A stretch of 64,000 bases of DNA. It comes from Tetraselmis striata. Lineage: Eukaryota; Chlorophyta; Chlorodendrophyceae; Chlorodendrales; Chlorodendraceae. Of this stretch, positions 7,345-64,000 are shown one piece after another. The stretch is taken from NCBI GenBank assembly GCA_006384855.1, contig VCJN01001726.1:124001-188000 (forward strand), in the 5' to 3' direction. Both the position numbers and the translations under genes were made by a program. Below the pieces are notes generated by a model. It worked only from the letters and a program-made list of their open reading frames with translations, was not told the origin of the DNA and did not search any database. Each line of letters begins with the position of its first letter. Position 1 is the first letter of the stretch.

Positions 7345-8315
<971 letters not shown>

Positions 8316-8759
8316 ATGCCCCTTTAAACTGTTCTTGTACTTTAATACCGGGGCCGGCTTGGGGGGGGGGGGGGGTGGGGCTCAGCCGGCCTAGCATGCA
8401 GCGCGTCACTGAAAATTCGATGTGCACAAGTGACCCAGGTGGGGGGGAGAAGACTGAAACGTTTAAATGTTTTATTGACACCCAAACCAGCGCAAACCAT
8501 GATTGTCGTTAAAATGAAGAGTGGCCCCCGCTTCCTTACCTTATTAGGATTCTGCATAAATTGTCACTGTTGCATGACCCGTCCCCTGCAGATCTCTGCA
8601 CGTCACTGACAGTTCCCGTGGGGACAAGCACGACCACAACGCACTCCTGCAACCGCACACTCGAAGCTCTCTCGTAGTTGCCTCAGCCATCAAGCCCCAT
8701 GGCCGCCGCGTCAACCACCCGCCTTCCGAGTGACCGCATCTCGCTGCCCTTCCGCCACT
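8316..8759. other. Intergenic spacer with G tract
   Basis: A run of about 18 G at 8359-8376. It is the 3' flank of the minus-strand glycosyltransferase-like gene. No gene seen. Confidence 0.35.
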
Positions 8760-27200: not shown

Positions 27201-27890
27201 GTTTATCAGAATGGCTTCGGAGCTGTATGGATATTGACTGTACGGCGCCACCCCGCGGTACGGCTACCATTACTAATCCGCACGAGGTGCGGAATGTTGT
27301 AGGGTGTTAAGCTCGTCCTAAAGATGATGCTAGCCGATACGCGCGTCTCAGCGGCGCGCATTAGCACGGCTCCGGCATAGCGCGTGCCATGCTTCGCGCA
27401 TGTATGCATTCGGTACGCGGCACGTTACGGTTCATGGATTCACACCGCGAAACGGCACTTGGCGGGCATCATGAATTGCCGCGGCATGTTGCATTGCGTT
27501 TCTCGTGCCCAACACATGCTTGCCTATGCCCACGTCTCCTCGGCGCTCGTTATGAACGCTCCGGTGTAGCCCGTGTCACGCGTGGGCGACGTTGGTATGA
27601 CCGCTATACGGTTCACGGCGCCGCGCCGTGAAACGGCTACAAGTACTCATCCGGGCAAGGTGCGGCATGTTGCAGCGTGTTTGGCTCGTCCGATAGATGC
27701 TAGCCGATAGAAGTCTGAGTGGCGCGCGTTGGTACGGCTCCGGCATAGCGCGCGCGGAGCTTGGGGAACATATGCATCAATTATGCGTCGCGTCTCGGTT
27801 TACAAATCTAACCGCGCAAAGGCACTACGAGGCGGCCATCACGAGGCGTGTTGCATCGCGTTTGTTCATGTAATACGTGCTTTTCTAATG
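21290..27890. repeat. Satellite array, about 187-bp monomers with higher-order repeats
   Basis: Diverged monomers share an anchor CTCGTCC-x-A-x-A-x-ATGCT, then a CGGCGCGCATT core, a CCGTGCCGTGC-x-TGGGC-x-CA core, and a GCGGCATGTTGCA block before the next anchor. Anchors occur near 21498, 21703, 21889, 22081, 22254, 22445, 22640, 22821, 23012, 23185, 23378, 23570, 23745, 23937, 24113, 24309, 24494, 24883, 25063, 25257 and 25434, mostly 173-205 bases apart. Five consecutive monomers repeat as a unit of about 932 bp (21889-22820 against 22821-23752, almost identical). Near 25500 the orientation flips and near 27150 it flips back. Open frames in the array, including two near-identical 140-codon frames at 22327-21905 and 23259-22837 (-), follow from repeat composition and are not called as genes. 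Confidence 0.9.
25500..27150 (-). repeat. Inverted block inside the satellite array
   Basis: Here the monomer anchor reads as its reverse complement (GGACGAGGCAAACACG at about 25975, 26325, 26513 and 27027). At the left edge the arms GCATGGGCTCATAGGTACCGG (about 25334-25354) and GGTACCTGTGTGCCCATGCA (about 25505-25524) face each other. The right edge is at about 27145, where GGCACGGGCTAATT joins plus-oriented sequence. Confidence 0.8.
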
Positions 27891-46816: not shown

Positions 46817-47510
46817 CGAGGCTAGACAAATCGACTAGACAAATCGACTAGTACTAGCATGCAATATATGCGAATAGATGAACAGTATAGTCGCTACAAG
46901 GATATTAAGGGCCCAACCTCCTTTTCTCACCGCGACGAAGCCGGTATTCTTATCTTACTATCTTTTACCATATTAATTACAAGTTGAGTATGTCTGTGAG
47001 TATGTTTGCTGCCGATTTTCGGAACAGTTTTGCATAGAATATTAGATAATCGACAATTTATCCGTTATATATTCCGTCTTAATTCCGCGCAGGCCAAAAT
47101 AATCGCTTATACCTGCGGACTATCTGTATCAGGACGGGTACCGACCGCCCGGCCGCCGCCGGTCGGGCCGGTCGTCAGGTCTACGGGGCGGGCATTGCGC
47201 AAACACTGTGATATTCAGATGTGACATACGGGTGAGTGGGTGACGAAGCACTACCGTACCGGTACCACTATTATCCGTGAAAGCTGCTGCTGGTGGCGGC
47301 ATGTCCATCCAGTTACGTGCGAGTACATCCGGCGTTATTGCCGGCGGGCGATAAATCCTTTTTGTCATCATTCTGGTAGTCGTACTAGCCCGGTGAATTG
47401 TTACATGGCACTGACGTATAAGGTACAAGGTTGTCCGTGTGGTACCGGGTAGTACCGGGTGGTACCGGGTAGTACGCGATATATTTATTAAGCCGGTACC
47501 GGGTATCTAG
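46817..47510. other. Intergenic, no gene seen
   Basis: Mixed AT-rich sequence with GGTACCGGGT-type short repeats near 47440-47505 (GTACCGGGTAGTACCGGGTG). Nothing else recognised. Confidence 0.35.
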
Positions 47511-47622
47511 TCGCCTACCCAGGGCTTTCCGTAACTGGATTGCTGCCTAAACGGCCGTCGTAGAGACGCTGCAAGGGTTTCACTGGTGCCAGTCCTGTCC
47601 CGGGGGCGAAAAAAAAAAAACC
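47511..47622 (+). repeat. Dispersed repeat, copy 2, with A tail
   Basis: Match of 32825-32932. Here the repeat ends in about 12 A (47609-47620), which suggests a retroposed origin. Confidence 0.6.
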
Positions 47623-48055
47623 CGGGCGCGATGGCTAGTCGTCCTGTGGATAACTACGACTATTAGTACATGGGAGCGCAAATCTCAGCCGTACTATTTG
47701 GCTCAAGTGGGGAATTGTGTGTACATTATAGCAAGTACTGCTGAACGGGCCTGCCAGCCGTCCGATCAAAGGCCATCAGATGGGCGGTTTGGCTGCCATG
47801 TTTTGCCAAAGAGTGCTCACGTTACATAAATATTCGCGAGGGGGAGGGCGGGGGCAGGCAGCGGTTTGCCGAAGAATGATTAAATTACAATATTCGCGAC
47901 AGCTGCCATCGGGGAATGTGGCCCGGGGGGGGGGGGGGGGGGGGTTGTGCGGGGGCGGGGGGACCACGCCCCCCCCCCGCCCCCCCTCGCCGCCAGCCGC
48001 TCCCGCCTGGGGGGGGGGGGGGGGGGTGAGGGGAGGGGGGGGGGGGGGGGTGGAG
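47623..48055. repeat. Spacer with G/C tracts
   Basis: Two related short stretches containing AATATTCGCGA (about 47829 and 47890), then runs of G at 47926-47943, C at 47970-47978 and G at 48010-48050. This is the 3' flank of the minus-strand gene ending at 48056. Confidence 0.5.
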
Positions 48056-49167
48056 CTACTGCTTGTTCTTGTTCTTGCGTGCCCGGGGGACCCGCCTCGA
48101 CCTCGCTGCCTCCGCCTCCGCCTCCGACTCCGCGACCGTCAGTTTCTTACCTGGGCGCTTCTTCACTGGCCTCTTCCGCTTCTTGTCGGCGTCCGACTGC
48201 TTCTTGTCGGCGGCGTTCATCCAGCACATCTCCTTCTCAGTTAGGGGTGGGCGGGGCAGCGGCGCGTCCGGAGGGAGAACGGCGGCCGTCAGTGTCTTCA
48301 CCACCCCGGGAGGCTGTGCCGTCGACGACGCCGCCATGAGCTTCCTTGCCTTGGCGTCGGGACGCCCCCTGTGCCCGGACGCCCACAACAAGCCACAATC
48401 GTTTCGCCTCCAAGCGGCTGAGGATGCGGCCTCCTCGGCCACCACGAGTTGCGCCGCTGGCACTGTGGAAGCCTTGGCGTTGAGGTGGGCCTTACGGCGC
48501 TCCCGGACGAACCTGCGCGCGGCACAAGTTAGCCACGAGTGGGTGCGTGCTAATGTGGAGGATGGAGTGTTTTGTTGCGCGCCCACCTTGTCACGCGTTT
48601 CCTCATGTCTTTCTCGTCCCCCTCGATGCCGGCGGCGCGGACACGCGAGACAACAAGGCCCGCCGCCCGGTCAGGGGCAACAACCTCGCCCAACGCACCT
48701 TGCACCGGCAAGTACACGTCGTCATCATCTCGTGGCCATACGGCCTGGATCTCTGCACGCATGACAGTGATGGTGTCGGTGCTGGCGCGCGACCTTGTTG
48801 AGGAGGACGAGGCAGCCCCAGCAGCGCTGGAGGGGTCCGTGATGCCGGTGCGATCTGCGGGCGTGACATAGAAGGCCAGCACCCCCTCTGGCAGCGTGTA
48901 CTGCGCGGCCTCGAGTTGTTGTCGCAGCGGCCCCCCGCCGGATTGGTTCCTAAGCCGGGCTGCAAACTCCTGCAGAGGTGCGCCCCAGGAACCCTTCCTG
49001 GCGTCGTCTTCTGAGGGGTAGACCCGCAGATCTGCTGGTTGCGACTTTGCCGCGTGGGCAACCATTGTCTCCACGGACTGCGCCGCGAACACCAGGCATA
49101 AGGACACCTCTGCACGGGTTTTCTTTGTGATAACGATGGCTTTTGCCCGGGAGACGAGGTCTGCCAT
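48056..49167 (-). CDS. Basic protein of unknown function, two exons
   Basis: ATG at 49167. Exon 1 runs to the donor AAG|GTGGGC at about 48585 (MADLVSRAKAIVITKKTRAE..., ...VWPRDDDDVYLPVQGALGEVV...VVSRVRAAGIEGDEKDMRK). Exon 2 starts after CGCGCAG near 48513 (FVRERRKAHLNAKASTVPAA) and ends at 48056. The C-terminus is strongly basic (ADKKRKRPVKKRPGKKLT and RRVPRARKNKNKQ), as in nuclear DNA- or RNA-binding proteins. No domain recognised. It is divergent from, and about 450 bp from, the Ulp1/dioxygenase gene, so the two may be co-regulated and belong to the same element. Confidence 0.5.
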
Positions 49168-49619
49168 GGCGCTGTGAGCGGTGAAAGCGGGGGGGGGGGG
49201 GGGGGGGGGCGAGGTGGAGAAACTAACACCCAGTCGACGACCGCCTTCCGGGGCAGTCAACGACACAGCGGAGGCGAGGAGCAGCGCGCCTCTACTACTG
49301 GTATGCATGTATTGTGAAGGGCTAGTCTGTGCGGCATTGTGTCGGGGTAATTTCGCAGTGTATATTGTTGAAGCAGCACGGCGTTTTGAATACGTGGTTT
49401 CACCGAGTGAATCCGGGATAATATATGCGGTAGGGCGCGCGTGTATATGTGCGCGACGAATATGCGCACCGGTGTGCGGCAGCGGTGTGCAGCAGCGGTG
49501 TGCACGACATGTAGAGGCGGAACGGGTGAGTGTCCGCCGCTCCACCCAGCGCCGCAAATCCCCGTGCGTGGGCACCCAAGACCCCCCCCCCCCCCCCCCC
49601 CCCCCATAAACATGCCGCC
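49168..49619. promoter_or_regulatory. Shared intergenic region of a divergent gene pair
   Basis: 452 bases between two divergent starts. It contains a G tract (49189-49209), a C tract (49581-49604) just upstream of the plus-strand ATG, and three tandem GCAGCGGTGTGC-like units at about 49470-49504. No TATA box was identified. Promoter function is inferred from position only. Confidence 0.4.
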
Positions 49620-52600
49620 ATGTCAAACAGTGTTAATTCCCCCGAGCTCCTCGCTGAGGAAGATGCGACGACGAGGTTGCAAGCCTACCTCGAGCGGTGG
49701 CTACACGGTGGTGGTACCCATGACCCCGTACGCCTGGAGCTGTGGAGGCTTCTCGGAGAAGACGCCGCGGATGCCTTGCTGAGAAAGTTCCCTACTGTGG
49801 CCCCGACGTCAGACCCGGAACTGAACGCTCCCGGGCTGCTAGAGGTGGGTTTGTTGTCGCACATCGCACGAGACCTGGTTGGGTTCAGCGAAGGACGCGG
49901 CGGAGCGGAAGGGAGTACAAACGTCGTGGTTCTGAGCATGGTGTCCGGGAACGAGGCCTATCTGCGCAGGAAGTTGTTGGGAGAGGGCGATAGCATAGGG
50001 CAGTGGGAGATGGACGTGCGAGCACAGCAGGCATCCTTCCGGCGGGCCCGTTGCTTCCAGAACCCTCCCCCGGCGGCCCAGCCCTTATCGGACGTGCGCA
50101 CCTTCGTGATTCCGGTCTGTGTCTCCATCCACCTCACTGCCTTGGTGGTGGACGCTGCGGAAACCGAGCCCCTAGTCTTCGACTCGATGATGAAAGAAAC
50201 CAACTCGCAGCACATGCTGATCATGTCCATGTTCCGTGAGTTCGTGACCCGGATGATGAAGTCGCCTGATCCGGGGGTGCCTGCCGGCTTGTGCTGGGAG
50301 AACGTGACACACCTCCTGGGAGTAGCGGAGGCGGAGGCTCGCACTATCCCCGTGGCGGAGGAGCAGGTACAGGATGACATTTGGACCTGCGGGTGGCGGG
50401 TGCTGTTCTTCATCTACTGCTTGCTGAAGTTGAAGCCCGAGGACGAGCGTCGCGCTGCATGCACTGTTGAGGGCGGGGACGTGCAGAGAATTCAGCACGG
50501 AAGCCCTGGAAAGCTTTCGCAACAACGTTGTGCAGCAACGGAGTGCCCAGGATGGCGTCATCCATGCTCCTACTGACACGGACATCGTCCCCATGGACTT
50601 GTGTGCGCGGGTGGGCAAGCCCGAGGATGGCCTGCGACCGTTCACGCCCTGGGCTGCAAGGCGCATTGCCCAGGTCCGCCCCCCCGCCCCTACCTCTTGG
50701 CATGCAGCACTTGGCAAGTAGCATGCAGCGCTGACACACAGTGGGGGGTGAGCGCGTGCGTGGGCCATGCAACCCGCAGGTGCGAGGCTGGAAGTCTGTC
50801 TCCATGGGGGCGACAGTGGCGCTAGTGGAAACAGTCCTGAACCAGGATCCGTCAAGCCTCATCCAGCAAGAGGCCGCCGCGGGGAAAGCACCGGAGCGGG
50901 CGGTGAGGCGGGTAGATGAGGTTCGCCTGAAGGGATGCACGGGCGTCCTCCATGCTCCAGATGGTGTGTTCTTTGCAGCGGCCGCGTTCAATACCGCCGG
51001 CGGCAATCGGCGTACCTCGAAGTGCAAACGGTGCGTGGCGGTTGAAGCTGTTAAGTGGCGCAAGTCTGCGAAGAGGCTGAAACGAGCGGGAGGTTCTTCG
51101 AGCGTGCCACCCGCCGTGCATGAAGACGGCACCCCAATGGAGCTGATATCTCCCAGCCAAGCCCTGCGGGCGCGTTTCATCGGCAACAAGCAGTTGCAAT
51201 CGGGCCAGCCCACGCCGTTTAAGTTGGACCTGAGTGACGCCCAGAAGACCTTGCTGGAGATGGCGATGGAGTGTCTGGTCAACATGCCTAGCAAGCAATG
51301 GAGCGAAATGGGCTTTGGCATTCAGGGCGGGCGCATCCAGGTGCAACCCCCCCCCCCCCCCCTATAAACATGATGCCTTGCTGCTGCCGATGCCCGCCTT
51401 GGCTTGACGTGTGTGTGCCCCTGACACCAACAGGTCATCCCGCCCCCGGAAGACATGTTGGACATTGCGGAGCACACGCAGGTGATGCCGTACGTCGGTG
51501 AAAAGGAGGGCAAAGTCGACCCGTGGAAGCTGTGGCATTGGGCAAGGAGTGCGCCAGAGACCTTGGTCGGCAAAATGCCGAATCAGATGAAGAGGTGCCC
51601 CCCCCCCACCCCCCCCCCCCCGCTCCCTTCAACCCCTGACCCGTGCGTCGCTTATTCTGAGCGTGTGCCTTGCAGGAAGGCCTTGTTTGCCGCCTTGCTG
51701 GAATTGCGGCGCGCTTTCGTGGCTGGTGCCGAGAAGGTCGGCGAGCTAGCACCAGGGTTTTGGTCGTGGCCGGTGATCGCGTTGCTGTTCACCCCGGCGA
51801 ATGCCCCCGCTCAGATCACCCACATTGATGGGCAGGCTCCAAATCTGCAGGCCATCCTTGCATGCACGTGCCACTGCCGCCCCACTGAGGTGTACCGCGG
51901 GCCAGAAGTGAGCTTCACAGATGCCGTGAAGCACATTCGGTACCGGGTGCGCCCCCCCCCCCCCCCCCCCCCAACGCCGGTGGCGGGAGCGGGGGCGGGG
52001 GCGGGGACTGAGTGCCATCCATGTGTTGACATGAAAAGGGCCACGAGAATCACCGCCTCACGGAGAGGACGCTGGCGGACACAGATCCGGGAGTTGCCAA
52101 CTTCATCACGAGCCACAAGAACTTGATGCAGCCCCTGGAGGACTTGGAGCGTGGCATGGGTGTCCCCGAGGAGGACAAGCCCTACATGGAACAATACCAT
52201 GGGTACATGTTTGGGTCGGACACGACGCACCGCGGGCCCGCGGGCGCCCCAGTTGACCAGCCCGGCGGTAACCCCTGCCTCAAGTGTCAGGGGCGTGGCA
52301 ATGTCCGCTTGTACGGGCAGGGGCACCTTCTGGGACTGCCTGGCTGCGGCCGTGCGGACGACCCTACCCAGTACACGCCGTTCCTGGCAGCCTACAACGA
52401 GGCACTGTACCCACACATCACCCCCCGCAGTGATGCTGCGGAGAAACGCAACCACGAGTTGGCGGCGCAGTATGTGGCCCACTTTGGGGAACATGCTGTG
52501 TTGCCAAACCATTTGTACAGTGACGAGGACTACGCCAGCATCCATGCCAGAGCGAAGGAGCTGCGGCTTGTTGTTGAGGCTGCGGCTCCTGCCGCTGCCG

Positions 52601-52623
52601 CTGCCGCCTCCATCCCGCCGTAG
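49620..52623 (+). CDS. Ulp1-like cysteine protease with C-terminal 2OG-Fe(II) dioxygenase-like domain
   Basis: Start ATG 49620. Exon blocks are 49620 to about 50460, about 50440-50673, 50780-51340, 51434-51594, 51676-51946 and 52039-52623 (TAG). From the second block on all phases agree. The first part has a Ulp1/C48 protease layout: His171 in SIHLTALVVD, Asp188 in LVFDSM, Gln251 and Cys257 in VQDDIWTCGW. Such proteases cleave SUMO-like modifiers and are often carried by DNA transposons. The middle has a basic CKRC segment. The last two exons hold APAQITHIDG (HxD at 51821-51829) and about 105 residues later FGSDTTHRGP (distal His at 52228), the metal-binding pattern of 2OG-Fe(II) oxygenases. 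A one-base frame change near 50430-50470 separates the protease from the rest, so these could be two genes, or one with a sequencing error or mutation. Introns carry poly-C next to donors. Confidence 0.6.
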
Positions 52624-52966
52624 ACAGACGATCGGGTCTGGCAGCACCGCCCGTGCTTGTAAATAAGCGACAATGGATCACGTCATGCTCCGGTTGTACT
52701 CATGCACTTCCTCCACTTTGGCGGGGGGGGGGGGGGGGGGTCCTGTCCTTATTACTTGCTATTGGATATGGAGGTCACCGGCCACATCGCGTGGTTTCGG
52801 AGCAGTTCATGCGCGCCTCCTCGTCTTGTTTGCAATCGCCGCCCTAATCCAATGCAGGTTGAGTAGCGGGACACTGCTGTGCTCCCCCCCCCCCCTAGGT
52901 TTATGTAAACAAATATCTAGCCGTGCATGCGCCGCAATCGGTACCCAATGAGCGGGGTATGTGACA
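52624..52966. other. 3' flank with G tract
   Basis: G run at 52723-52740 and C run at 52886-52895. A GTGGTTTCGGAGCAGT motif at about 52790-52805 recurs at 52967-52981. No gene seen. Confidence 0.35.
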
Positions 52967-54478
52967 GTGGTTTCGGAGCAGTGCAAGCATTCCGTGCGTG
53001 TACACAAGCACGTACTACTGGGAATGAGGCGGGGGTTAGTTACGGATGGAGTGCATTGGCGGTATGCATACCATAATATATGGGTGCATGGAATAGCGTG
53101 TCCCTGGGGTTTTGGCTGCATCAGACGCCGTATTCCCATCCATCCGGCACGGAATGTCCGGTTTTCACACATTTGTGTGTTAATATATTTGAATATTACG
53201 CGTCTTTTACGCCGGGTGGGTGGGCGTCCGGCGTGCGATGCGCCCCAATTATTTCCAGCACACTAGTCTGTGCACCGCCAGTGCACTCCGCAAGCCCCGC
53301 CTCCATCCGCGTCGGAACCGGTAGTAAGTGTTGTTGTGTGCGCACATAGTGACAACATTACACGGTGGCAATTGCAATTAGCGGTGGACAATGTGAAGGC
53401 GTTCTCGAAATCGACAGAGAATGAGGCGGTGCTGGCGGAGTGCATTGGCGGTGCATAGAATAGCGTGTCCCTGGGGTTTTGGCTGCATCAGACGCCGTAT
53501 TCCCATCCATCCGGCACGGAATGTCCGGTTTTCACACATTTGTGTGTTAATATATTGTGAATATTACGCGTCTTTTACGCCGGGTGGGCGGGCGTCCGGC
53601 GTCCGATGCACCCCAATTATTGCCAGCACACTAGTCTGTGCACCGCCAGTGCACTCCGCCAGCCCCGCCTCCATCCGCGTCGGAACCGGTAGTAAGTGTT
53701 GTTGTGTGCGCACATAGTGATAACATTACACGGTGGCAATTGCAATTAGCGGTGGACAATGTGAAGGCGTTCTCGAAATCGACAGAGAATGAGGCGGTGC
53801 TGGCGGAGTGCATTGGCGGTGCATAGAATAGCGTGTCCCTGGGGTTTTGGCTGCATCAGACGCCGTATTCCCATCCATCCGGCACGGAATGTCCGGTTTT
53901 CACACATTTGTGTGTTAATATATTGTGAATATTACGCGTCTTTTACGCCGGGTGGGTGGGCGTCCGGCGTCCGATGCACCCCAATTATTTCCAGCACACT
54001 AGTCTGTGCACCGCCAGTGCACTCCGCATGCCCCGCCTCCATCCGCGTCGGAACCGGTAGTAAGTGTTGTTGTGTATGTGCGCACATAGTGACAACATTA
54101 CACGGTGGCAATTGCAATTAGCGGTGGATGATGTGAAGGCGTTCTCGAAACCGACAGAGAATGAGGCGGTGCTGGCGGAGTGCATTGGCGGTGCATAGAA
54201 TAGCGTGTCCCTGGGGTTTTGGCTGCATCGGACGCCGTATTCCCACCCATCCGGCACGGAATGTCCGGGTTTCACACATTTGTGTGTTAATATAGTGTTA
54301 ATATTACGCGTCTTTTACGCCGGGTGGGTGGGCATCCGGCGTCCGATGCACCCCGAATCTCACCAACACGCTACTACTCTACGCACCCCCAATGCACTCC
54401 GCCAGCCCCGCCTCTATCCGCGCAAGTCCTACGTTCCATTGTATGTATGTACAGACGAACATGTACTGCTCCGAAACC
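52967..54478. mobile_element. Possible element: tandem repeat flanked by inverted motif
   Basis: GGTTTCGGAGCAGTGCA at about 52968 faces ACATGTACTGCTCCGAAACC ending at about 54478, so the tandem array lies between short inverted ends (about 14 matching bases). A non-autonomous element with internal tandem repeats is possible. No target duplication was identified. Confidence 0.35.
53051..54420 (+). repeat. 368-bp tandem repeat, about 3.7 copies
   Basis: GTGTCCCTGGGGTTTTGGCT begins at 53098, 53466, 53834 and 54206 (spacing 368, 368 and 372). Units are nearly identical through TGCATTGGCGGTGCATAGAA. The first copy starts within the unit and the last is cut near 54420 and more diverged. Frames inside repeat with the unit and are not called as genes. 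Confidence 0.95.
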
Positions 54479-54499
54479 AGCCCAAACTTAATGAGTGCA

Positions 54500-54645
54500 C
54501 AAGTGGAAATGGGGGGGGGGGGGGGGGGGGTGGCGGCGGGGCATCCACTCACACATACCCCGGCGATGCATGACAGATATTACATGCCGTGGCGGGTCGG
54601 CGGGCCGACCCGGCGGGGGGTGGGGTGGGGGGGGGGGGGGGGGGT
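54500..54645 (+). repeat. G tracts
   Basis: Two G-rich runs at about 54511-54531 and 54617-54643, with GC-rich spacer between them. No gene. Confidence 0.8.
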
Positions 54646-55130
54646 CTATTCAACTACACGTGCGACAGTGTCGTTTCGTGGAGCAGTATATGTGCCCGGC
54701 CTCATTTATACCGCCCCCTACCTGCGCTGCATGGTCCACGTCACTCGTCGAAACGGGGTTCGCCTAACCGCGCCTAACACGGTACTTGTACTGTATCCGT
54801 ACTCAATTTTACTGTACGATTACTGTATTCCGTATCACCCCGCGCCTTACCGCGCCTTACCGCGCCTATATCCTCTTTCAATCAGCTTATCTCGGCGGTG
54901 GTCGCGAGTACCCGCGCCGCCATGACTGCCATAGCAGTACCCGTACGCAAATGGTACGTGATATGACGGCGTACCAGTACCGGAACTGCCCTTTTTGTAA
55001 TTCACACCAGTACCAGTACCAGTACCATGCCGCTTTTAGGCGGCTTGCTGTGTTGATTTTCTAATTATGGGGAACTGCCCTTTTTGTAATTCACACCAGT
55101 ACCGGGATATCGTGCATGAACTAGTTATGC

Positions 55131-55250
55131 ACTGCTGTCGCACACTGCACACTGCTGCACACTGCGCACTGTAGCGCACACTGTCGCACACTGCACACTG
55201 CACACTGTTGCACACTGCGGCGCACACTGTCGCACACTGCACACTGCGCT
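55131..55250. repeat. (CACACTG)n degenerate microsatellite
   Basis: About 15 heptamer-like units, GCACACTG with inserted GTCG, CTG or CGG, occupy about 120 bases. Confidence 0.9.
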
Positions 55251-55260
55251 AGTACTGCTG

Positions 55261-55515
55261 TACTATAATAGAATCCTTTATGCGGGCCGCGCGCACCGCG
55301 TCCATCACACAGCAAACTTCCTCACCCACCCCGAGCTGCACATAGCGCGCTTGCCCCCAGTGCGCGCGGCTACTGCGCATCACGCCCCCCGGAGCGCAAA
55401 CCTTACCCCATGGGTACACATTACTGGCGGTTGTCGGGCAGGTGGTGCCCACAGTGGTCAACATCGGCTGTGCACTCGGCCGCATCAGGTACGGACGCCG
55501 CCCTTTTTGCCCCAC
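55261..55515 (-). CDS. Possible exon, unknown product
   Basis: 88-codon minus-strand frame with protein-like sequence (VYPWGKVCAPGGVMRSSRAH, then WGQARYVQLGVGEEVCCVMD). It lies inside the inverted-repeat element. Start and partner exons not resolved, family not recognised. Confidence 0.3.
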
Positions 55516-55620
55516 TCACTCACTGCAGCCCACCCACGCCAAACATAATCGGAGACATCTCGGCACCGATCCCACCCGACACGCACCCGATATCGCTAGA
55601 GGGAGGGGAAGCTGAGGTGG

Positions 55621-56091
55621 TTGCCGTGGCGGATTTTTGAGTTCCTCCGTTGTTCTCTCGCATCGTCCGTTGATGCTACATCGGGTTGGAGGCTGAAAAC
55701 CCTTCGCGCCGACGCAGCGCCCCAACGATATGGCGCGACGCGAGAACTGCGCTCGGTGCGTTCTAGCCGTTTCGGACACCAGCCCGCCGCCTCCGAATTC
55801 TGCCGGAAGTGTGGCAAGTCCACCACAGTAGATGGCCTACCAGTGGTACGCGAGGAGGCGTTGGTCTCGGCGGTGACCGAGGCGATGTACGACCGCATGA
55901 ACGGCCACGGCCACCACATGGAGCTGCCAACTGGCTACTCAGTGGGCCCAAGTGATCCAAAGGCGTGGCCCTTCCTCACTGCCTTCGATGATCCCAAAGT
56001 ATACGCAATGCGCGAGCTGCATGCGCTGTGCGAGGCGCATTTTATGGACCCGATGGACGATAGCGATGCTATGCGCGATGTGATGGGCTAG
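55621..56091 (+). CDS. Possible element-encoded protein, 5' part uncertain
   Basis: The later half looks real: FCRKCGKSTTVDGLPVVREE, then VTEAMYDRMNGHGHHMELPT, then AWPFLTAFDDPKVYAMRELH, then LCEAHFMDPMDD, ending at TAG 56091. One CxxC pair (CRKC) could be half of a zinc site. Further plus-strand blocks (56400-56595 with DAVKCGPYEKKYFMQRRAGR and CRSCD) may belong to the same multi-exon gene. No transposase core recognised. Confidence 0.4.
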   Translation: MPWRIFEFLRCSLASSVDATSGWRLKTLRADAAPQRYGATRELRSVRSSRFGHQPAASEFCRKCGKSTTVDGLPVVREEALVSAVTEAMYDRMNGHGHHMELPTGYSVGPSDPKAWPFLTAFDDPKVYAMRELHALCEAHFMDPMDDSDAMRDVMG

Positions 56092-56339
56092 GATTCAGCG
56101 CACCAATCCCGCCACCGCTTCCCATAGAGACGGGTGGCTATGTATTCCGGTGGGAGGCGCTGCCGGGCAAGAGCGAGGCAGACAAGCTGGAACAGTAGGC
56201 GCTCCGAACTGTGCGCTCAGAGCGTGCGCGTGAGTTGGGTGAGCGCGCTCGGAAGTTGCGCGCTACGGAGTGGCAAGAGCGCATGGAGCGAGAGTGAGCG
56301 GGTATCTCAGACAACACCAGCGAAGGCGACTATTCAGCG

Positions 56340-56595
56340 CCCCGCACATCGGCGCAGTTCTGAAAGCTACGACAGCATTGACAGGTGGGATGCGGTAAAG
56401 TGCGGGCCATATGAAAAGAAGTACTTCATGCAGAGGAGGGCGGGGCGCGAAGCAACGATGGAGGCGGGAGGCGAGGCGTTCAGCATCGGTGAGGGGGCTG
56501 AGGGCAGCGGTGAGCCGAGCACCTGCCGCTCATGTGACATAGCTGTCTATGGCAAATCCAGTAAGGGCGAGAAGGGGAAGGGACACGCTCACTAG
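56340..56595 (+). CDS. Possible downstream exon of the element gene
   Basis: Frame ending at TAG 56595 with ESYDSIDRWDAVKCGPYEKK and a C-terminal STCRSCDIAVYGKSSKGEKG tail. Plausible as coding, but splice connections to 55621-56091 are unresolved. Confidence 0.3.
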
Positions 56596-56610
56596 ATGTA
56601 ATTAATGCAT

Positions 56611-56865
56611 TCACATCTTCCTTCGCTTCGTCGCCGCTTTCTCTGCCATCTCTGCCTTCACGGCACACGCCTTTGCCTTGGGCAGGTGGGGCTGTGCACG
56701 ATGGGCTGGTCCATGCATGTCACGGTGGTGCGCGATCAAGGTGCTGCGCGTCGTGACTTGGCCAGTCCTGGAGAGCATCACCTTGCCGGACTTGAGCAGG
56801 TGCTGGGGCTTTTGGTTGCTGCCGTTGCGGAAGCCCTGCTTGATCTCCATGTTTGCAGTGAGCAC
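56611..56865 (-). CDS. Short basic frame, unknown product
   Basis: 84 codons on the minus strand: MEIKQGFRNGSNQKPQHLLK, then SGKVMLSRTGQVTTRSTLIA, ending with a basic AEMAEKAATKRRKM. The basic tail and Lys/Gln-rich start look coding. It overlaps plus-strand frames. A distant piggyBac-like resemblance was considered but is too weak to assert. Confidence 0.3.
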   Translation of the reverse strand: MLTANMEIKQGFRNGSNQKPQHLLKSGKVMLSRTGQVTTRSTLIAHHRDMHGPAHRAQPHLPKAKACAVKAEMAEKAATKRRKM

Positions 56866-57098
56866 TCAATGCGTCAAGGTTGCCATGCAGTTCTATCCAT
56901 CGGGAAATTGCCGTCATGCAACTTATTCATGCACGGAGTGATGTCCTTTGCTGCCGCGATGTTCATGAAGGCTGCGAAGAATACCTCCGTAGCTGCCCGT
57001 AGCTTGTAGGTCAAGGTAACTTATTTCGTTGTCGCTGAGAGCCACCTCAAAAACAGCGCGATGACTTCGCCTCCCGTTGTGTTTGCAGTTGGAGATGC

Positions 57099-57478
57099 GT
57101 GCTATCAACGCCTATGAGCAATGGACTGTGGGAGGGCCCGATCAACACTGTCTTCCAGCAGGACTTTGTCTTCCCGCCCAGGATTGTGCATGGCAGACTT
57201 GTCACATATACATGGACAGAGGCCAGCAACACTGCTGGTAGGGGGCGGCGGCAAAGGGCCGCCGGTGACGCTGTGCCGAGGCAGATGATCAGGTGATGGG
57301 CCACCTGTGTGATATATTATTGCTGAAGCATCTTACATGTTGTTGTTGCTTTCCTGCACTTTGCGCTGATGCTGATAGTGCAGCCCGGCACGGGTGGTGC
57401 TCCTACTTGAAGCACTCCCATGCCTACGACATCGCCGCCCTCGATGAGGATGATGGCGGTGTTGATGCCATGCAGTAG
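57099..57478 (+). CDS. Possible two-exon C-terminal fragment
   Basis: MSNGLWEGPINTVFQQDFVF then PPRIVHGRLVTYTWTEASNT (57114-57235) reads as protein. A block after the CAG near 57383 (ARHGWCSYLKHSHAYDIAAL, then DEDDGGVDAMQ) ends at TAG 57478. Both are plus strand, with intron-like sequence between. Family not recognised. Confidence 0.3.
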
Positions 57479-58040
57479 TAGCATATACGTAGCAACCGTG
57501 GCGTGTGTGAATTGAGCATATCCATATGTTGTGGGAGCAGTTGCGTAGTATGGCAGGCGCATGATACATATAGGCGTCGGTTGGGTCTGGGGTTTCCAAA
57601 TGTAATGTTAAGCAATACTATCTTACGAAGCATCGCCAATCTGCATTATGCTTGCACATATTGCGCGCATGCCTGCTTCACTAATTTTCCTGACACACTC
57701 ACAACATTTTTTTTTGATACTGACAACATGGGTCAATGTTACGCATGGATGCCGCGGTGTACTGCAGTATCGTCGCGAGCAAGCATTGTCAACCGATGTT
57801 GACACAAAAGTTTGCATTTGTCTTTGCCGCTATACACATCTGTACTTTTGTGAATTTCATGTCATTTGTGGTATGTATGTTGATTTGCATGTAATCTGTT
57901 CAGCAATAAGATTAATGTGAAACGCGTCGTGCATTACATACAACAGCAGATGCATCGTAGTGTCATTGATTATGTTATTGTGACGCCCCGGGTACCGAGG
58001 TACCATTACTAGTCGAGACTGATGCAATGATATAAAGTAC
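57479..58040. other. AT-rich spacer within the element
   Basis: No coding support. Contains a T run at about 57707-57714. Confidence 0.3.
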
Positions 58041-58154
58041 GTGATGAGCCACCAGCCGCGCGCGCACTTTCACTCTTCGGCACTTCCTCTTCGCCTATTT
58101 ATGCTGACCGCTTCGCATGAAGAGCAGATCGCCCTGCTCGCCCCCCGTGCCACC

Positions 58155-58822
58155 ATGGCCTCCGTCAGCACCTTCCATGCCGCTGCCGGGACGGATGACG
58201 CGTCGTGGGAAGATATCATGCTGCCGAGAGGAGCACGCGAGCCCCCGCCTGTCCCGCGCGGCCCGCCCCTGCGCTACTACCTCACGACAGTCAGCGCCGA
58301 TGACACGTCGAGCGTTTTTGACTGGTCAAGCTGAACGGCCCGTCTGCCCACCCTAATTGACCGTGGAGGAGGAGCAAGCTGCCCTGCTTAAATCGATGAA
58401 GCCGACGCATGCAGCAAGGGTTCTTTGCATCCCTAGTGCAAAGGTGCGCTTGCCGGCCGGTTTACCTGCTCATCGTGTAGCTAGCTGCTGACGTTGTCGC
58501 TGCCCGAGCGAGTGTCGGCGACTAAGTGTTTTTTCTTTCATCACTACCGCAGTCCGGAATCGACCAGAACGGCGCTCCGGTGCAAGACCTGTCTACCGGC
58601 TACAGCCCCCCTCCCCCGCTCGCTCGACGAGCTCATGTTCCCCGTGCGGCTAGATCCCCGGCGCTTCAGGACGCTACTGCGAGGATGCAGGCTGGACGCC
58701 AGAGGAAGCAAGCGCCACGGGAGCGCGCGGCGGCATCATGCCAGCCCCGTCAAACAAGCTCCCTAGCCGCGGGGCGCAGCAGATGGCAGCAGCTGCCATG
58801 AATAGCATGCCCCAGAAGTAGC
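58155..58822 (+). CDS. Possible small spliced gene, unknown product
   Basis: MASVSTFHAAAGTDDASWED then IMLPRGAREPPPVPRGPPLR and YYLTTVSADDTSSVFDW (58155-58333), then LTVEEEQAALLKSMKPTHAA (about 58358-58440), then GIDQNGAPVQDLSTGYSPPP after a CCGCAG near 58552. The pieces look like successive exons of one protein with a basic, Ala/Gln-rich tail. Splice junctions are not proven. Confidence 0.3.
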
Positions 58823-58829
58823 TGCGGGC

Positions 58830-59522
58830 AATAAGGGGCAGTCAGCACCCGAGCCGACAGCGGGCATAACACCACGTGCCGGCGCCAGGAAGAGGCCGGC
58901 GGCAGCGGAGCCAGCCGGCCGCAGGCCAGGGGGGGCGGGCACGGGCCGGGGGCGGTAGTAGACCCATTGTAATTAAATTTCTAGTATTTCCCTAATACTT
59001 TATGCAGTTGCCGACCCCTCCGCCATAAATCCGAAAATGTCCGGTGCCTTGACGTTAAATTTGCCAGCTAGGAGTAGGCGCGCCCATGTCCGCTTAACCA
59101 CACCCCGAAGCTCGACGCTCATTGGCCGCTGATCCAGCATGGCACCTCACCTTTATTAAATCACAAAACCAACCGTGACTACCGTGTAATGCATTTTTGC
59201 AGCCTTTGTTGTGTATCGACCAGTTCCCTACTGCCCCGCCTGCTCGTCATCATCACTCGTCATCACGCGGGTATCTTCCGCGCGTACTCGTGAGGAGGCG
59301 CGCGCCTAATAGCAGATATGAAGGGCAGTGATTCCCGTAAAGTACAGTGACTCGTGTACTCGTCTCGTACTTTGTGCACTCGTGACTACCGAGTACCCGC
59401 TACTCGCTATAGTACTTTGATGCAGGGCTCCGCTGCCGTACTCATCCTTACCGCCAAGTTTTTAAGTACTGTGACGCCTAACGTTAGGCGCGATATATAC
59501 ATGCGACTACTCGCGCCTGGTA
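58830..59522. other. 3' part of the element, non-coding
   Basis: GC-rich to about 58960, then AT-richer, with repeated ACTCGTG and GTACTCGT words (59345-59425) and a perfect palindrome CGCCTAACGTTAGGCG at about 59473-59488 close to the right inverted repeat. Confidence 0.45.
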
Positions 59523-59940
59523 GTCGTTAAGCGCGGTTAAGCGGACCCCGTTTCGACGAGTGACCCCTACGATTTACTTAGCACAAACCGCCATTACTTG
59601 ATAGGAACCTAGCACAGCCAGGCTTATATGCCCGCTTTGCCGATCAACTTCTACGCACTTTCCGTCCCTCAACCGCCGGACATGGGGGTTAAGCCGCCAG
59701 CCTCGGCAGTTGCTTAGCCAAACTTGGCATCCCGTACCGTGTCCATGGCTTCGTAGCTCTGCCGCCGGCACACGCCGAGTCCGGCGCTTGCTGCCGCCGG
59801 GTTGCGCACGCATGCACGCACAGTAATACGCCGCCGACGCCGCCACGCTTACTTCCACCACCTTCGCCAGCCGCAGCTTCGCACGCCGTTCCGCCGATAT
59901 ACGAAACGCACTCCCCCCCCCCCCCCCCCCTCCCCGCGTC

Positions 59941-60849
59941 ATGTATAATATATTCGAGGCGACTATGCGGGGCGCAGCACACGCCGCGGCGTGGGTCGGC
60001 GGCGCGGCGGGCGGCGGGAGCCCTAATGGCCGCGCAGTATCCACACCCACACCGGCACCGCCGCTCACCTCCGACGCGGATGAACCGCCTCCCAAAGGAA
60101 ACATGCCGGATGGTGGTAAGCGCAGCAGGCGTGGGGTGCCGGTGCCGGTACCTGTGCGACGGAGCTGTCGCGTCAGGAACCGCACCGCAACCGCAACCGC
60201 ACCGCATGTGGAGCAACACATGGCGGTGCCGGCCCCACCTATGTCTAGGGCCACCTCCTCACAGCACCCCGCCACGACGGCGTCGGCCACCGCCGACGGC
60301 GCCGTTGCGGGGGGGGACGCCCTGCCAGGCGACGACGATGCGCCTGATGCGCCGCATCAGGAGGCGGAGGAGGCCGTGGTAGAGGCGACTGATAGGGATG
60401 AGGGAGTTGTCGAGGCGAGCGAGGCTGCGCTCGCGCCACCCGCCCCGCAGCCACCTGCGGGACATGCCGACTTGCTCGTCGCCATGTTGACCGGAGCACT
60501 ACGAGCAGTGGCGGGAGGCGGCCACATGCACTATCATGTGCGTGTCCTGGCCGGACGCCCGTCATGCGTGTACTGCGGCCGACGGACGGACTGGGAGTGC
60601 TGCTGCGACGGCACCCCGGCTTTGTGCGGCCCCAAGTACCCATGCATGGCGACCCATCAGCGGGCAGTCCCCTGCCCGACCACGGCCGCGGTGAGGGCGG
60701 AGTTCCGCCATGCCAGGGACGCGTTCCACGACGCGACTCGCGCCGCCGTGTCTGAGGCTTCCGAGAAGGCACGCGCGGCTGGTAGGGTGCGCAGGGTGAG
60801 GCGGCGGACGGCCCAGGAGATGAAGGAGAGCGAGACATGCCGTCAGTGA
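59941..60849 (+). CDS. Zinc-ribbon protein with piggyBac-like cysteine-rich end
   Basis: 302 codons in one exon, ATG 59941, TGA 60847. Residues 1-180 are low-complexity: Ala/Pro/Gly-rich, a basic KRSRRG...RRSCRVRNR patch (60-81), then an acidic stretch. Residues 209-239 form a cross-brace-like zinc site: C209, C212, C220, C222, C229, C235, H239 (PSCVYCGRRTDWEC, then ALCGPKYPCMATH). The C-x2-C...C...LC...C...H order resembles the cysteine-rich domain at the C-terminus of piggyBac transposases, where it binds transposon ends. No DDE catalytic domain is present, so this is a free-standing end-binding-like domain or a degraded derivative. The C-terminus is a basic helix. It is convergent with the Tnp2-like gene ending at 61016. 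Confidence 0.55.
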   Translation: MYNIFEATMRGAAHAAAWVGGAAGGGSPNGRAVSTPTPAPPLTSDADEPPPKGNMPDGGKRSRRGVPVPVPVRRSCRVRNRTATATAPHVEQHMAVPAPPMSRATSSQHPATTASATADGAVAGGDALPGDDDAPDAPHQEAEEAVVEATDRDEGVVEASEAALAPPAPQPPAGHADLLVAMLTGALRAVAGGGHMHYHVRVLAGRPSCVYCGRRTDWECCCDGTPALCGPKYPCMATHQRAVPCPTTAAVRAEFRHARDAFHDATRAAVSEASEKARAAGRVRRVRRRTAQEMKESETCRQ

Positions 60850-61015
60850 GGTCGGGCGCAATGTTATTGGGTGGGGCTCACGGGCGTGTAACACTTGCAC
60901 TTTGCGCGTACTGCTGGGTTACATCCAGGCGGCGTCACACTACTATGCAACCGGAAAGGCTGCGTTGCTACTGCAAACGATGCTAAGCCTCACTCGGTAG
61001 CAACCGCTGCCCCGC
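60850..61015. other. Convergent 3' spacer
   Basis: 166 bases between the stop codons of the zinc-ribbon gene (+) and the transposase gene (-). No other feature. Confidence 0.4.
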
Positions 61016-63961
61016 CTATCCCTCAGCCGCTGCCCCCCCCCCCCCCCCCCCCCCCTCTCGCGCACCGTCCTGCGACCTTGCGTGGATCCCCGCCACCAGC
61101 AGCTCCCCGGCGTCGACGCCCAAGTCGGCAGCCTTCGCGGAGGACATGTCGGCAGGGGCCATGAGAACAGCCACCTTGCGGATGCCCGGACCATCTAGTA
61201 GGACAAGGGCCTCCTCCCCGCCGGATCCGCCGCCGCCGCCCGGCACTCTCCACAAGTCCAAGCCCACGGCAGTGTGGGCTCTTTCCGGCGTCCACACCGT
61301 ACACAATGCAGCCCGAATGGGCCGCGCGCTGCCACGGCTGCCGTCCGAGTCAACCCCTAGCGGGGGCGGTGGCGTGGCAAGGTAGAAGTGTTGAGCTCGC
61401 GCGACCATGGTGGTGTACTTGGCGTCTTCGCGCTCCGCCAGCAGGTTTCTTGGCAGCTCCTCCTCGCTCTCTAGCTCCTCGGTGGTGTAGGGGGGTGGGT
61501 CGGCGTCGGGGACTTGCTTCAACATCTTGTACACAAAGAAGGAGTTGTCTCTCGACGTCTCCCCATCTCCCCCCCCCCCCCCCCCCCGGTGTAGCCGGGG
61601 CTTGTCGCCGTTGCGAAGCGACGCCGCCTTGTAGGCCAGGAGCCCCCCAGCGCCACCGCTGGGGCTCCAGCCCGGCAGGACCGCACCCCACCCCGCGAGT
61701 ATGGGTGCATACGAGTGCGAGCCCTGCACCGTACGTCGGACGTCGTCCAGCAACTTCTCCAAATGGTCCTTGAAGTCCACCGCGTGCTCCCACGCAGCGG
61801 ATGCGCTCCCAACCAACCGGATGGGCGTCTCCACGGCGCCGGGGCCTGCGTCGTCTGGGGCCATGTACCCCTGTGTGTGTGGATGGGTCGCTGTGAGTGC
61901 GAGTGTGAATGTGTGTGTGTGTGTGGGTGGGTGGGTATGGGTGCACGTGGCTGAGGAGGCAGCAAGAGGCGGGCGGGGGGGGGGGGGGGGAGAGACGACC
62001 TTGTTGGGGTTGGGTTCCCGGTAGAGGCGATGCGCCTTCAGGCGGTTGATCCGCTGCGCGAAAAGGAGGTCCCTCATCATGGTCTCGCAGACATTCTTCG
62101 GCAGCACGCGCTTGGCGCCCGCCTTCAAGAAGACCATGAGGTTCTCCATCCACAGCTCCGCAAGGGGGTGCCCGCAAGCCAGCATATGGTGGATCATGCG
62201 GCACACCGCCGAGTGCAAGTTGGAGACGAGGAGCGACACGAAGCCGTTCCCCTCAGCCAGGCGGGCATACACGGTGATGTCCGCTAGGTATCGAGTCCTC
62301 CCCTCCCTGGTGAGCGCGTCCACCTGCGCCTTCCGCTCAGGGCCGTCCTCCTCCGTCACCACGCTCTGCACCCCCCACCGCGTGACGAACCACACAGCTC
62401 CTTGCAGGCGCTTGTACATGTGCCCAAGCACCCCCAGCTGCGACACCGCACGCATCACCGCTGGGGACGCGAGCTCCTTCCCGGTCATGATCGCCTTCAC
62501 CCGGGCCTCCTCGAACAGCGGACCGGCGGTAAGAAGGGAAAACGTTTCCGAGTGGTGCCAGCAGTCCTCGATGACCCAGCCGGACAGCACCGTCACCTTG
62601 CATGACCCTGCAGTCATGAAGGGGAATGCCGTCACGCCCCCGCGCCCGCCCACGCCGCCCACCGCCCATGGGGGAGGGGGGGGGGGGGGGGGCTTACCTT
62701 TCGACTTCTTGGACACCGCAAACGAAGGGCGCAACCCGCGTCCAAAGTTGCTGGGTATCAGGACTAAAGCCTTGCGCCGGTCTTCCTGCTTCATAGCCCG
62801 AAATCCAACGTGGCCCAGCACGTCGAGGAAGTTCCTCCAAAAGTCCTTTCCCAAGCCCAAAAAGCACAGGTGGTCCGGCGCGAGGGGGAAGAGGTTGACC
62901 ATGCTGACATAGCCCAGGACCGCAAGCACCTGGCACACGCCATGGCAGCCAGTGTTCTGCTTGGCCTGCTCCAGCCGGGTTGTGTTGAACGCACGCCGGG
63001 CAGCGGGGCTCAGTTCGCCGTCCTCATCCCCATCAAGGGCCGACTTGGCCAAGTCCTCCTCTATCTGGCCGATGACGCCCATCTGCTCCAGCATCTGGTC
63101 GCCGGAGAGCAGGAGGCAGCTCGCGCCTGTGCGCACAGCCTGGTACTCTACGCCATCCACCCTCTGGATGACGTCCTTTGCATACCCCGCAGGCGCCACC
63201 TTCACCGTGCCGTCCGGGCCCTCCACATGGCTCCACAGACGGCACCAGGGGCAACCTCTGAGCTGCCTAGGACCCCCCCGCATAAAGATCTTTCGTCTGC
63301 CCTGGGCGTCACACACCCACGTACCGAGGAAGACCTTGTGCACGAACTGTTCCCCCCCGTCTGCGGGGGTGACCCTCACTCCATGCTCGCCAAGCACCGC
63401 GAGCTCGTCCAGCACCACTAACAGTATTTTGCCCAGGTTGGGCGGCTCCGGGGGCCCGATGAGTGCGACTGGGTGCCAGTTGCTCCTGGAGGTCAGCATG
63501 TGGGGCGGCATGTCCTCACACCTGATCCCAACCCCGGTGACAGACTGGGTGGCCCGAAGGTGCGACAGGAAGCCATCATCTGTGAGTGTGTAGATCCCGT
63601 TGTCGGCATGGAGGAAGTCTCCCGCGGCGAGGCCGGTGCCGTGCCCGCCTTCATTCAGGCGCTCCGCCTCCGACGAGGCGCGGAAGGCGTTGATAGACAC
63701 GTCCGTCCCCTTCTTCCAGCAAGCGTACCACGCAGGGTCTCGGAACCAGCCCTTGATGATGTCCACCACGCTCAAGACGTACCAAACCCGTGCAGCCGTG
63801 AGCTTCAGGGACTGCGGCGTGCGGATAAACCTGTCGGCATTGCACTCCGGGCAGTGCTGGTCGGGGAGGTTCGCCCATTCGGCAGCCTTCCCGGGCGCCC
63901 CGCTGAACGCCACGCACCCCTTGGGGCACATGTGCCGGACATATCTGGATGTATCAGGCAC
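61016..63961 (-). CDS. Tnp2/KDZ-like transposase, 5' end beyond the window
   Basis: Minus strand. The first visible exon begins at 63961 after a TGCATGCAG acceptor, so the gene starts outside the window. Exon 1 runs to the donor AAAG|GTAAGCCCCC at about 62697. Exon 2 runs from the acceptor TGACTGCAG (about 62610) to AACAAG|GTCGTC (about 62002), and exon 3 from CACACAG (about 61871) to 61016. Motifs: CPKGC and HCPECNADRF near the start; WHPVALIGPPEPPNLGKIL and VLDELAVL; then FLGTWVCDAQGRRKI with GGPRQLRGCPWCRLW; later LVSNLHSAVCRMIHHMLACG and PLAELWMENLMVFLKAG. This order (CPxC, LxGPxEPxxL...L.DEL, the D.xGRRK...GCxxC zinc site, then the HxxxH...W.E region) matches the Tnp2/DUF4218-type transposases of CACTA elements and the related KDZ group. 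The C-terminal 250 residues are variable. One C-type zinc site is seen; the catalytic acids were not assigned with certainty. Confidence 0.65.
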   Translation of the reverse strand: MPDTSRYVRHMCPKGCVAFSGAPGKAAEWANLPDQHCPECNADRFIRTPQSLKLTAARVWYVLSVVDIIKGWFRDPAWYACWKKGTDVSINAFRASSEAERLNEGGHGTGLAAGDFLHADNGIYTLTDDGFLSHLRATQSVTGVGIRCEDMPPHMLTSRSNWHPVALIGPPEPPNLGKILLVVLDELAVLGEHGVRVTPADGGEQFVHKVFLGTWVCDAQGRRKIFMRGGPRQLRGCPWCRLWSHVEGPDGTVKVAPAGYAKDVIQRVDGVEYQAVRTGASCLLLSGDQMLEQMGVIGQIEEDLAKSALDGDEDGELSPAARRAFNTTRLEQAKQNTGCHGVCQVLAVLGYVSMVNLFPLAPDHLCFLGLGKDFWRNFLDVLGHVGFRAMKQEDRRKALVLIPSNFGRGLRPSFAVSKKSKGKPPPPPPPPWAVGGVGGRGGVTAFPFMTAGSCKVTVLSGWVIEDCWHHSETFSLLTAGPLFEEARVKAIMTGKELASPAVMRAVSQLGVLGHMYKRLQGAVWFVTRWGVQSVVTEEDGPERKAQVDALTREGRTRYLADITVYARLAEGNGFVSLLVSNLHSAVCRMIHHMLACGHPLAELWMENLMVFLKAGAKRVLPKNVCETMMRDLLFAQRINRLKAHRLYREPNPNKVVSPPPPPRPPLAASSATCTHTHPPTHTHTFTLALTATHPHTQGYMAPDDAGPGAVETPIRLVGSASAAWEHAVDFKDHLEKLLDDVRRTVQGSHSYAPILAGWGAVLPGWSPSGGAGGLLAYKAASLRNGDKPRLHRGGGGGGDGETSRDNSFFVYKMLKQVPDADPPPYTTEELESEEELPRNLLAEREDAKYTTMVARAQHFYLATPPPPLGVDSDGSRGSARPIRAALCTVWTPERAHTAVGLDLWRVPGGGGGSGGEEALVLLDGPGIRKVAVLMAPADMSSAKAADLGVDAGELLVAGIHARSQDGAREGGGGGGGAAAEG
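61900..61992 (-). repeat. Poly-C and (AC)n tracts in transposase intron 2
   Basis: On the sense (minus) strand the intron begins GTCGTCTC, followed by about 16 C and later an ACACAC run. It is one of the clearest examples of a C tract placed directly after a donor site. Confidence 0.8.
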
Positions 63962-64000
63962 CTGCATGCATCGGGAGGCGAGGAGCGTGAGGGGCCTGAC

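Follow-up and report, generated by a model that had tools for sequence, protein, structure and literature searches.

We report that gene B, a gene in a 64,000-nucleotide stretch of contig C1397 (hereafter the window), belongs to an abundant algal CACTA/EnSpm-type transposon, and we put the probability at roughly 0.5 that it encodes a SUMO protease which acts as an accessory protein against silencing and whose C-terminal half is uncharacterised. Gene B, the divergent gene A and the transposase gene (gene C) are all parts of this one transposon (Table 1). The element is abundant and of a mobile kind, and at least one copy has its protease-type gene intact. The window copy is dead: its gene B carries a frameshift, and the copy is broken up by two other elements. 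A search of the host genome (224 Mb) returned 63 light-harvesting protein matches, which identified the host as an alga, as had been claimed earlier.

Table 1. Features of the transposon copy, in window positions
Feature	Position	Strand	Remarks
CACTA/EnSpm-type element, window part	47204..64000	+	collinear in C724 and in the complete element of C1870
Left terminus of the window element	47204		CACTGTGATATTCAGATG
Gene A	48056..49167	-	divergent; lysine-rich (basic) C-terminus; open stretches 49167-48598 and about 48518-48056
Gene B exon 1	49620..50673	+	N-terminal region and Ulp1/Peptidase_C48-like domain; frame change near 50460-50480 in the window copy
Gene B exon 2	50780..51340	+	187 aa; GT-AG by comparison with C1870; without known domain
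Gene B exon 3	51434..51594	+	by comparison with C1870 splice
Gene B exon 4	51676..51946	+	THID (HxD) motif
Gene B exon 5	52039..52623	+	HRGP motif, CxxC
368-bp tandem repeat	53083..54422		3.6 units in the window; longer array in C1870
Nested 4.8-kb insertion	54740..59562		own terminal inverted repeats GTCACTCGTCGAAACGG...; foreign to the element
Gene C, transposase, main open frame	61016..64000	-	994 aa in the window; still open at the window end

The class of the element was read from its termini. A complete sibling on contig C1870, 15,859 bp long and with four genes (A, B, C and D), carried CACTGTGAGATTCAGATG at each end and an ACG duplication on either side, and the element ends read CACTG...CAGTG in inverted orientation, which are CACT(A/G) ends as in CACTA/EnSpm elements. 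Ten further end pairs, picked as neighbouring opposite ends from a listing of terminus sites, carried CACTGTGAGATTCAGATG plus four more bases (a feature for which they were picked), and their 3-bp flanks were identical in six pairs and different in four, with a chance of 1 in 64 per pair for identical flanks; the four may be false pairs. The 22-base terminus was found at 2,331 sites in the genome (1,221 + 1,110, at most two mismatches), compared with 0 for a reversed-pattern control. The earlier note had taken the transposon to be of the KDZ type. The CACTG...CAGTG terminal inverted repeats and 3-bp target duplications, the mark of EnSpm/CACTA, ruled that assignment out and placed the element in CACTA/EnSpm; the KDZ side of this comparison was represented by Kyakuja, from among Kyakuja, Dileera and Zisupton, and excerpts of the published account give Kyakuja 7-bp duplications and no terminal inverted repeats (PMC12730594).

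BLAST comparison of the window with the copies on C724 and C1870 revealed a collinear block from 47204 to 54739 that resumed at 59563, with 95-98% identity to these siblings in the long blocks, compared with 85-91% in the first 308 bases. This collinearity, together with the complete C1870 element, indicated that genes A and B and the transposase gene reside in one element, just as the earlier note had proposed. The same gene order was also encountered elsewhere in the genome, genes A and B adjoining in many copies (judged by coordinates) and gene C accompanying them in C724 and C1870. Between the two collinear parts lies the nested insertion, which is absent from both compared siblings and has 39-bp terminal inverted repeats without a clear target duplication; the one open frame scanned in it (163 aa) matched no Pfam family. 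The window element itself extends beyond the window to about 66574 (in L075), where another family terminus interrupts it.

Gene B spans 49620-52623 and starts with an ATG at 49620. In C1870 it consists of five exons with GT-AG at 4/4 introns and encodes 875 residues without a stop, and the exon borders in the window were placed at GT-AG sites with the C1870 splice as a guide. The window copy contains a one-base frame change, the frame from 49620 ending at 50576 and the continuation frame beginning at 50434, whereas both parts of window exon 1 lie in a single frame in the C1870 sibling. An assembly error behind this change is unlikely, since the copies on C983, C2768 and C35 also match the shifted frame, through the query end in one match. 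The protease pattern, the apparent one-base frame change and the further GT-AG exons ending in HxD...HRGP that had been described for this gene are thus all present. Gene B did not arise by chance as a gene, because its exons recur many times in the genome: exon 4 gave at least 150 matches (of 234 candidates, 150 were scored), which are 80-100% identical, and exon 1 at least 131 rows (125 scored of 277 candidates), a row being a match, of which several may fall in one copy.

The N-terminal half of gene B was examined for its relation to Ulp1. Exon 1 encodes H171, D188, Q251 and C257 in this order, with Q251 six residues before the Cys, and a Gln at this spacing is a mark of the Peptidase C48 (Ulp1) family. 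Pfam Peptidase_C48 matched window exon 1 marginally, at E 3.1e-4 and with 21.1 bits where the cut-off is 20.7, and C1870 gene B equally marginally, at 20.7 bits against the same cut-off. A genome-wide search with PF02902 yielded 5 matches, one of which (on C2036) is a copy of the gene B family, while phmmer of exon 1 against the PDB retrieved no Ulp1 chain and one unrelated chain (E 0.96), and viral contigs scanned with the protease region showed no relatives. Among 63 loci, several of which overlap one copy and were each counted apart, H171 was present in 37/37, D188 in 57/57 and C257 in 58/58 readable loci, and Q251 differed in about 4% of rows. The motif windows, those of the protease as well as HxD...H, were no better conserved than the rest, though the catalytic residues were unchanged or nearly so. 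With Pfam at its cut-off and the catalytic residues in place, the match to an Ulp1-type protease is real but marginal, and the protease type assigned in the earlier note was borne out.

The C-terminal half bears on a bolder form of the same explanation, not exclusive of it, in which gene B would genuinely fuse a SUMO protease to a 2OG-Fe(II) oxygenase. The oxygenase would oxidise methylated bases or histone or chromatin proteins at the element, and together both activities would undo silencing; we consider this fusion somewhat unlikely. A 2OG-Fe(II) dioxygenase-like domain had been claimed for this half, and of that claim the HxD...HRGP pattern held, whereas profile similarity to a known 2OG family or to Tet_JBP did not. 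THID in exon 4 and THRGP in exon 5 match the 2OG-Fe(II) HxD...H triad as a pattern, their order and surroundings being those typical of 2OG enzymes, and are followed by NVRLY, which, as a motif reading, could supply the 2OG-binding arginine. The HxD His was found in 59/60 loci (one Tyr) and the Asp in 60/60, loci overlapping one copy being counted apart; the distal His was kept in all 35 readable of 36 loci, with Arg next to it in 34 and Gln in one. This near-invariance speaks for the fusion, as does the retention of the C-terminal half by copies that lost the protease (see below), and excerpts of one study record fungal EnSpm elements with TET/JBP genes (PMC12730594). By our estimate, however, an HxD...H pair is weak by itself, being not rare in 875 residues, and the lack of any higher conservation in the motif windows than in the rest argues against the fusion.

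Database searches also argued against it. With the C-terminal half as query, no 2OG family was detected in Pfam up to E 10 (the sub-cut-off matches were unrelated, e.g., CHAD at E 0.05-0.16) or in NCBIfam and PHROGs; no 2OG enzyme was found in the PDB by single sequence or by profile, each giving one unrelated chain; and phage records gave no match, nor were relatives seen in viral contigs scanned with part of exon 5. Pfam scans of the gene B exons showed no Tet_JBP, and the Tet_JBP profile had no genome match at E <= 1, in a search without a strong positive control, the controls matching only below the cut-off and in one genome. Alignment by hhalign with five cyanophage 2OG enzymes reached a probability of 0.5%, with the distal-His strand aligned and 5/30 column-shuffled controls scoring higher, the gene B profile being nearly a single sequence (Neff 1.08). 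When the five true phage enzymes were left out one at a time, four scored 27-95% and one 1.1%, indicating some power of the test, limited to one subfamily. A 2OG-oxygenase domain in the C-terminal half is thus at most suggested to the eye, by a short motif.

Many copies of the element are internally deleted. Among the matches listed, copies with the protease part had 81-98% identity and were distributed over many contigs, and 47/131 exon-1 rows ended at residues 107-110. The three such copies that were read (L024, L027 and L029) have the protease part deleted, with a jump from 49942-49944 to 51409-51411 in L024 and L029, and the sequence continues in frame into exon 3 in L024 and L027 but not in L029; protease-less copies retain the C-terminal half. 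Because the protease part is deleted in these three of the 47 short exon-1 rows, it is dispensable for copy number. On C142, one of the six pairs with identical flanks also encloses, judged by coordinates, pieces of a protease-less gene B. On C148, a family member of 7.8 kb includes a 1.5-kb piece with 95% identity to C1870 (element positions 7734-9257); from the distances to its ends, both its A/B part and its transposase part are probably shortened, and C148 was absent from the gene A and exon-4 matches, among the matches listed.

Selection was evaluated as pN/pS. Among copies, after removal of duplicate rows, of rows covering less than 60% and of pairs that overlap by less than 50%, the values for exons 1-5 were 1.44, 1.26, 0.66, 0.88 and 0.82, those for gene A and the transposase were 0.62 and 0.72 (the latter from two rows only), and between deleted and full copies the ratio was 0.55, 0.42 and 1.03 in exons 3, 4 and 5, respectively, and 1.65 in the N-terminus. 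Residues 1-109 and 190-245 of gene B reached 1.7-1.9 among copies, above the other segments tested, which could reflect fast evolution or relaxed decay. Since the ratio was 1.44 in exon 1 and 0.82-0.88 in exons 4-5, there is no clear sign of purifying selection on gene B. Such ratios, near or above 1, and the exon-1 rows that stop ahead of the protease would be expected if the Ulp1-like region were part of a captured host gene carried without use (transduplication), and plant CACTA and MULE elements have been described as capturing Ulp1 (PMC2528002, PMC13317346). We nevertheless regard such a passenger as quite unlikely, given that the catalytic residues are unchanged or nearly so in a varying neighbourhood, that the 875-aa frame, interrupted by four introns, is intact in C1870, and that protease-bearing copies are spread so widely. 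It is very improbable that the substrates of the protease are proteins of the element itself, as for viral or Polinton-type C48 enzymes, and not SUMO: C1870 exon 1 has a second, sub-cut-off Pfam match, to the viral processing peptidase Peptidase_C57 (E 0.056), but no polyprotein was seen, and the open frames of the four genes in C1870 stand apart, on both strands.

The remaining genes of the element were characterized likewise. Gene A matched no Pfam family over the cut-off, and its matches in the genome fill at least 150 rows, with 150 of the 1179 candidates scored. Relatives of gene A with 41-44% identity were observed on C1272, C633, C2330, C21, C74 and C2014; as a path to a distant gene B these relatives (about 43% identity) were rejected, the two flanks that were read (on C1272 and C633) having no gene B alongside. 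CACTA/EnSpm elements have Tnp2-like DDE transposases with C(2)C and H(3-4)H motifs. For the gene C transposase, no Pfam family scored over the cut-off, and the PF02992 profile matched nothing in the genome and nothing in any control either; a run ending in GCPWC looks Tnp2-like to the eye. Gene C gave at least 83 rows in the genome (64 scored of 4669 candidates), and viral contigs scanned with the transposase showed no relatives. A further 5′ open stretch of gene C lies at L075:376-1263 (-), with a weak Tudor-like match below the cut-off (PTM_DIR17_Tudor, E 0.077); a CxxC-type finger-like run was also noticed there by eye. Gene D, the fourth gene, is located beyond the window.

The host possesses C5 DNA methyltransferase genes. 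CpG transitions in the element occurred at 24/1844 sites, versus 31/4367 for other C/G sites, in three copies, and singleton CpG transitions at 38/361 versus 88/1070 in 30 copies; being raised 1.3- to 1.8-fold only, they are weak evidence for methylation of the element. The C5 DNA methyltransferase profile had at least 123 genome matches (123 scored of 337), e.g., at C663:45961-46221, and in 39 of the rows listed, spread over many contigs, a short core sits within open frames of at least 1000 aa, as would be seen with a methyltransferase borne by a repeated element. Retrotransposon-borne DNMTs are a parallel to such repeated frames.

Returning to the reading of gene B as an accessory SUMO protease, we infer a role against silencing, in which the protein would aid the escape of the element from host control. 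At element DNA, silencing factors or the transposase complex would be freed of SUMO, or of a modifier resembling it, by the cysteine protease, and the C-terminal half would serve to target the protease or bring a second activity. Mobility of the element and, in trans, of its internally deleted copies would come from the gene C transposase. The 368-bp array, which lies downstream of gene B, and the three exact copies of GGTTTCGGAGCAGT around it may serve as a lead, being natural candidate sites at which to look for binding; the window contained 8 matches to the GGTTTCGGAGCAGT-type motif, compared with 0.4 expected. Five near-copies of GGTTTCGGAGCAGT (GGTTTCGGAGCTAT four times and GGCTTCGGAGCTGT once) were also observed at window positions 22348-27226, far from the element. 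That one protein removes SUMO from silencing complexes and also oxidises their mark (5mC or histone) at the element's own repeats, by means of a highly divergent oxygenase, is in our judgement unlikely. If the C-terminal half were an oxygenase, a single protein would act against two silencing layers, in a host with DNA methyltransferases. A high-copy algal CACTA element whose copies have either a full-length or a deleted protease also provides a natural comparison of what the protease contributes.

Anti-silencing genes carried by transposons are known from a few plants and fungi. A literature search on transposons found no publication joining an Ulp1-type protease and a 2OG oxygenase in one protein; CACTA elements with ULP1 (PMC2528002) and EnSpm elements with TET/JBP (PMC12730594) have been published, and the comparisons below are with excerpts of these and related papers. 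The plant CACTA-ULP1 elements (grapevine Cactavine-2, -3, -4, -5 and -13, and rice Tnp2 + ULP1 proteins) share with the algal element the CACTA superfamily and a C48/Ulp1-like protease (PMC2528002), but the algal protease is encoded apart from the transposase and forms the front part of an 875-aa protein, of which about 525 aa make up an uncharacterised half. The TET-positive EnSpm elements of the fungi Puccinia and Agaricus resemble it in their 5′-CAC..GTG-3′ termini, 3-bp duplications and an accessory gene thought to counter methylation; they encode TET/JBP, whereas algal gene B has only the HxD...H motif, with no profile match, and a protease in addition (PMC12730594). In Arabidopsis, VANC genes of VANDAL elements bear Ulp1 and are a reported cause of hypomethylation of related elements (PMC13317346), a parallel that counts for the accessory anti-silencing role of gene B, and VANC21 offers a precedent for tandem repeats as target sites (PMC5735166). 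The KIU/VANC genes of VANDAL (MULE) elements share with gene B a transposon-borne Ulp1 joined to another domain, and tandem repeats in non-coding parts of the element (PMC13317346, PMC5735166); they belong to another transposon superfamily, and the 368-bp repeat is at most a candidate binding site. Compared with these systems, what is new here is a protease-headed 875-residue protein within a four-gene algal CACTA element.
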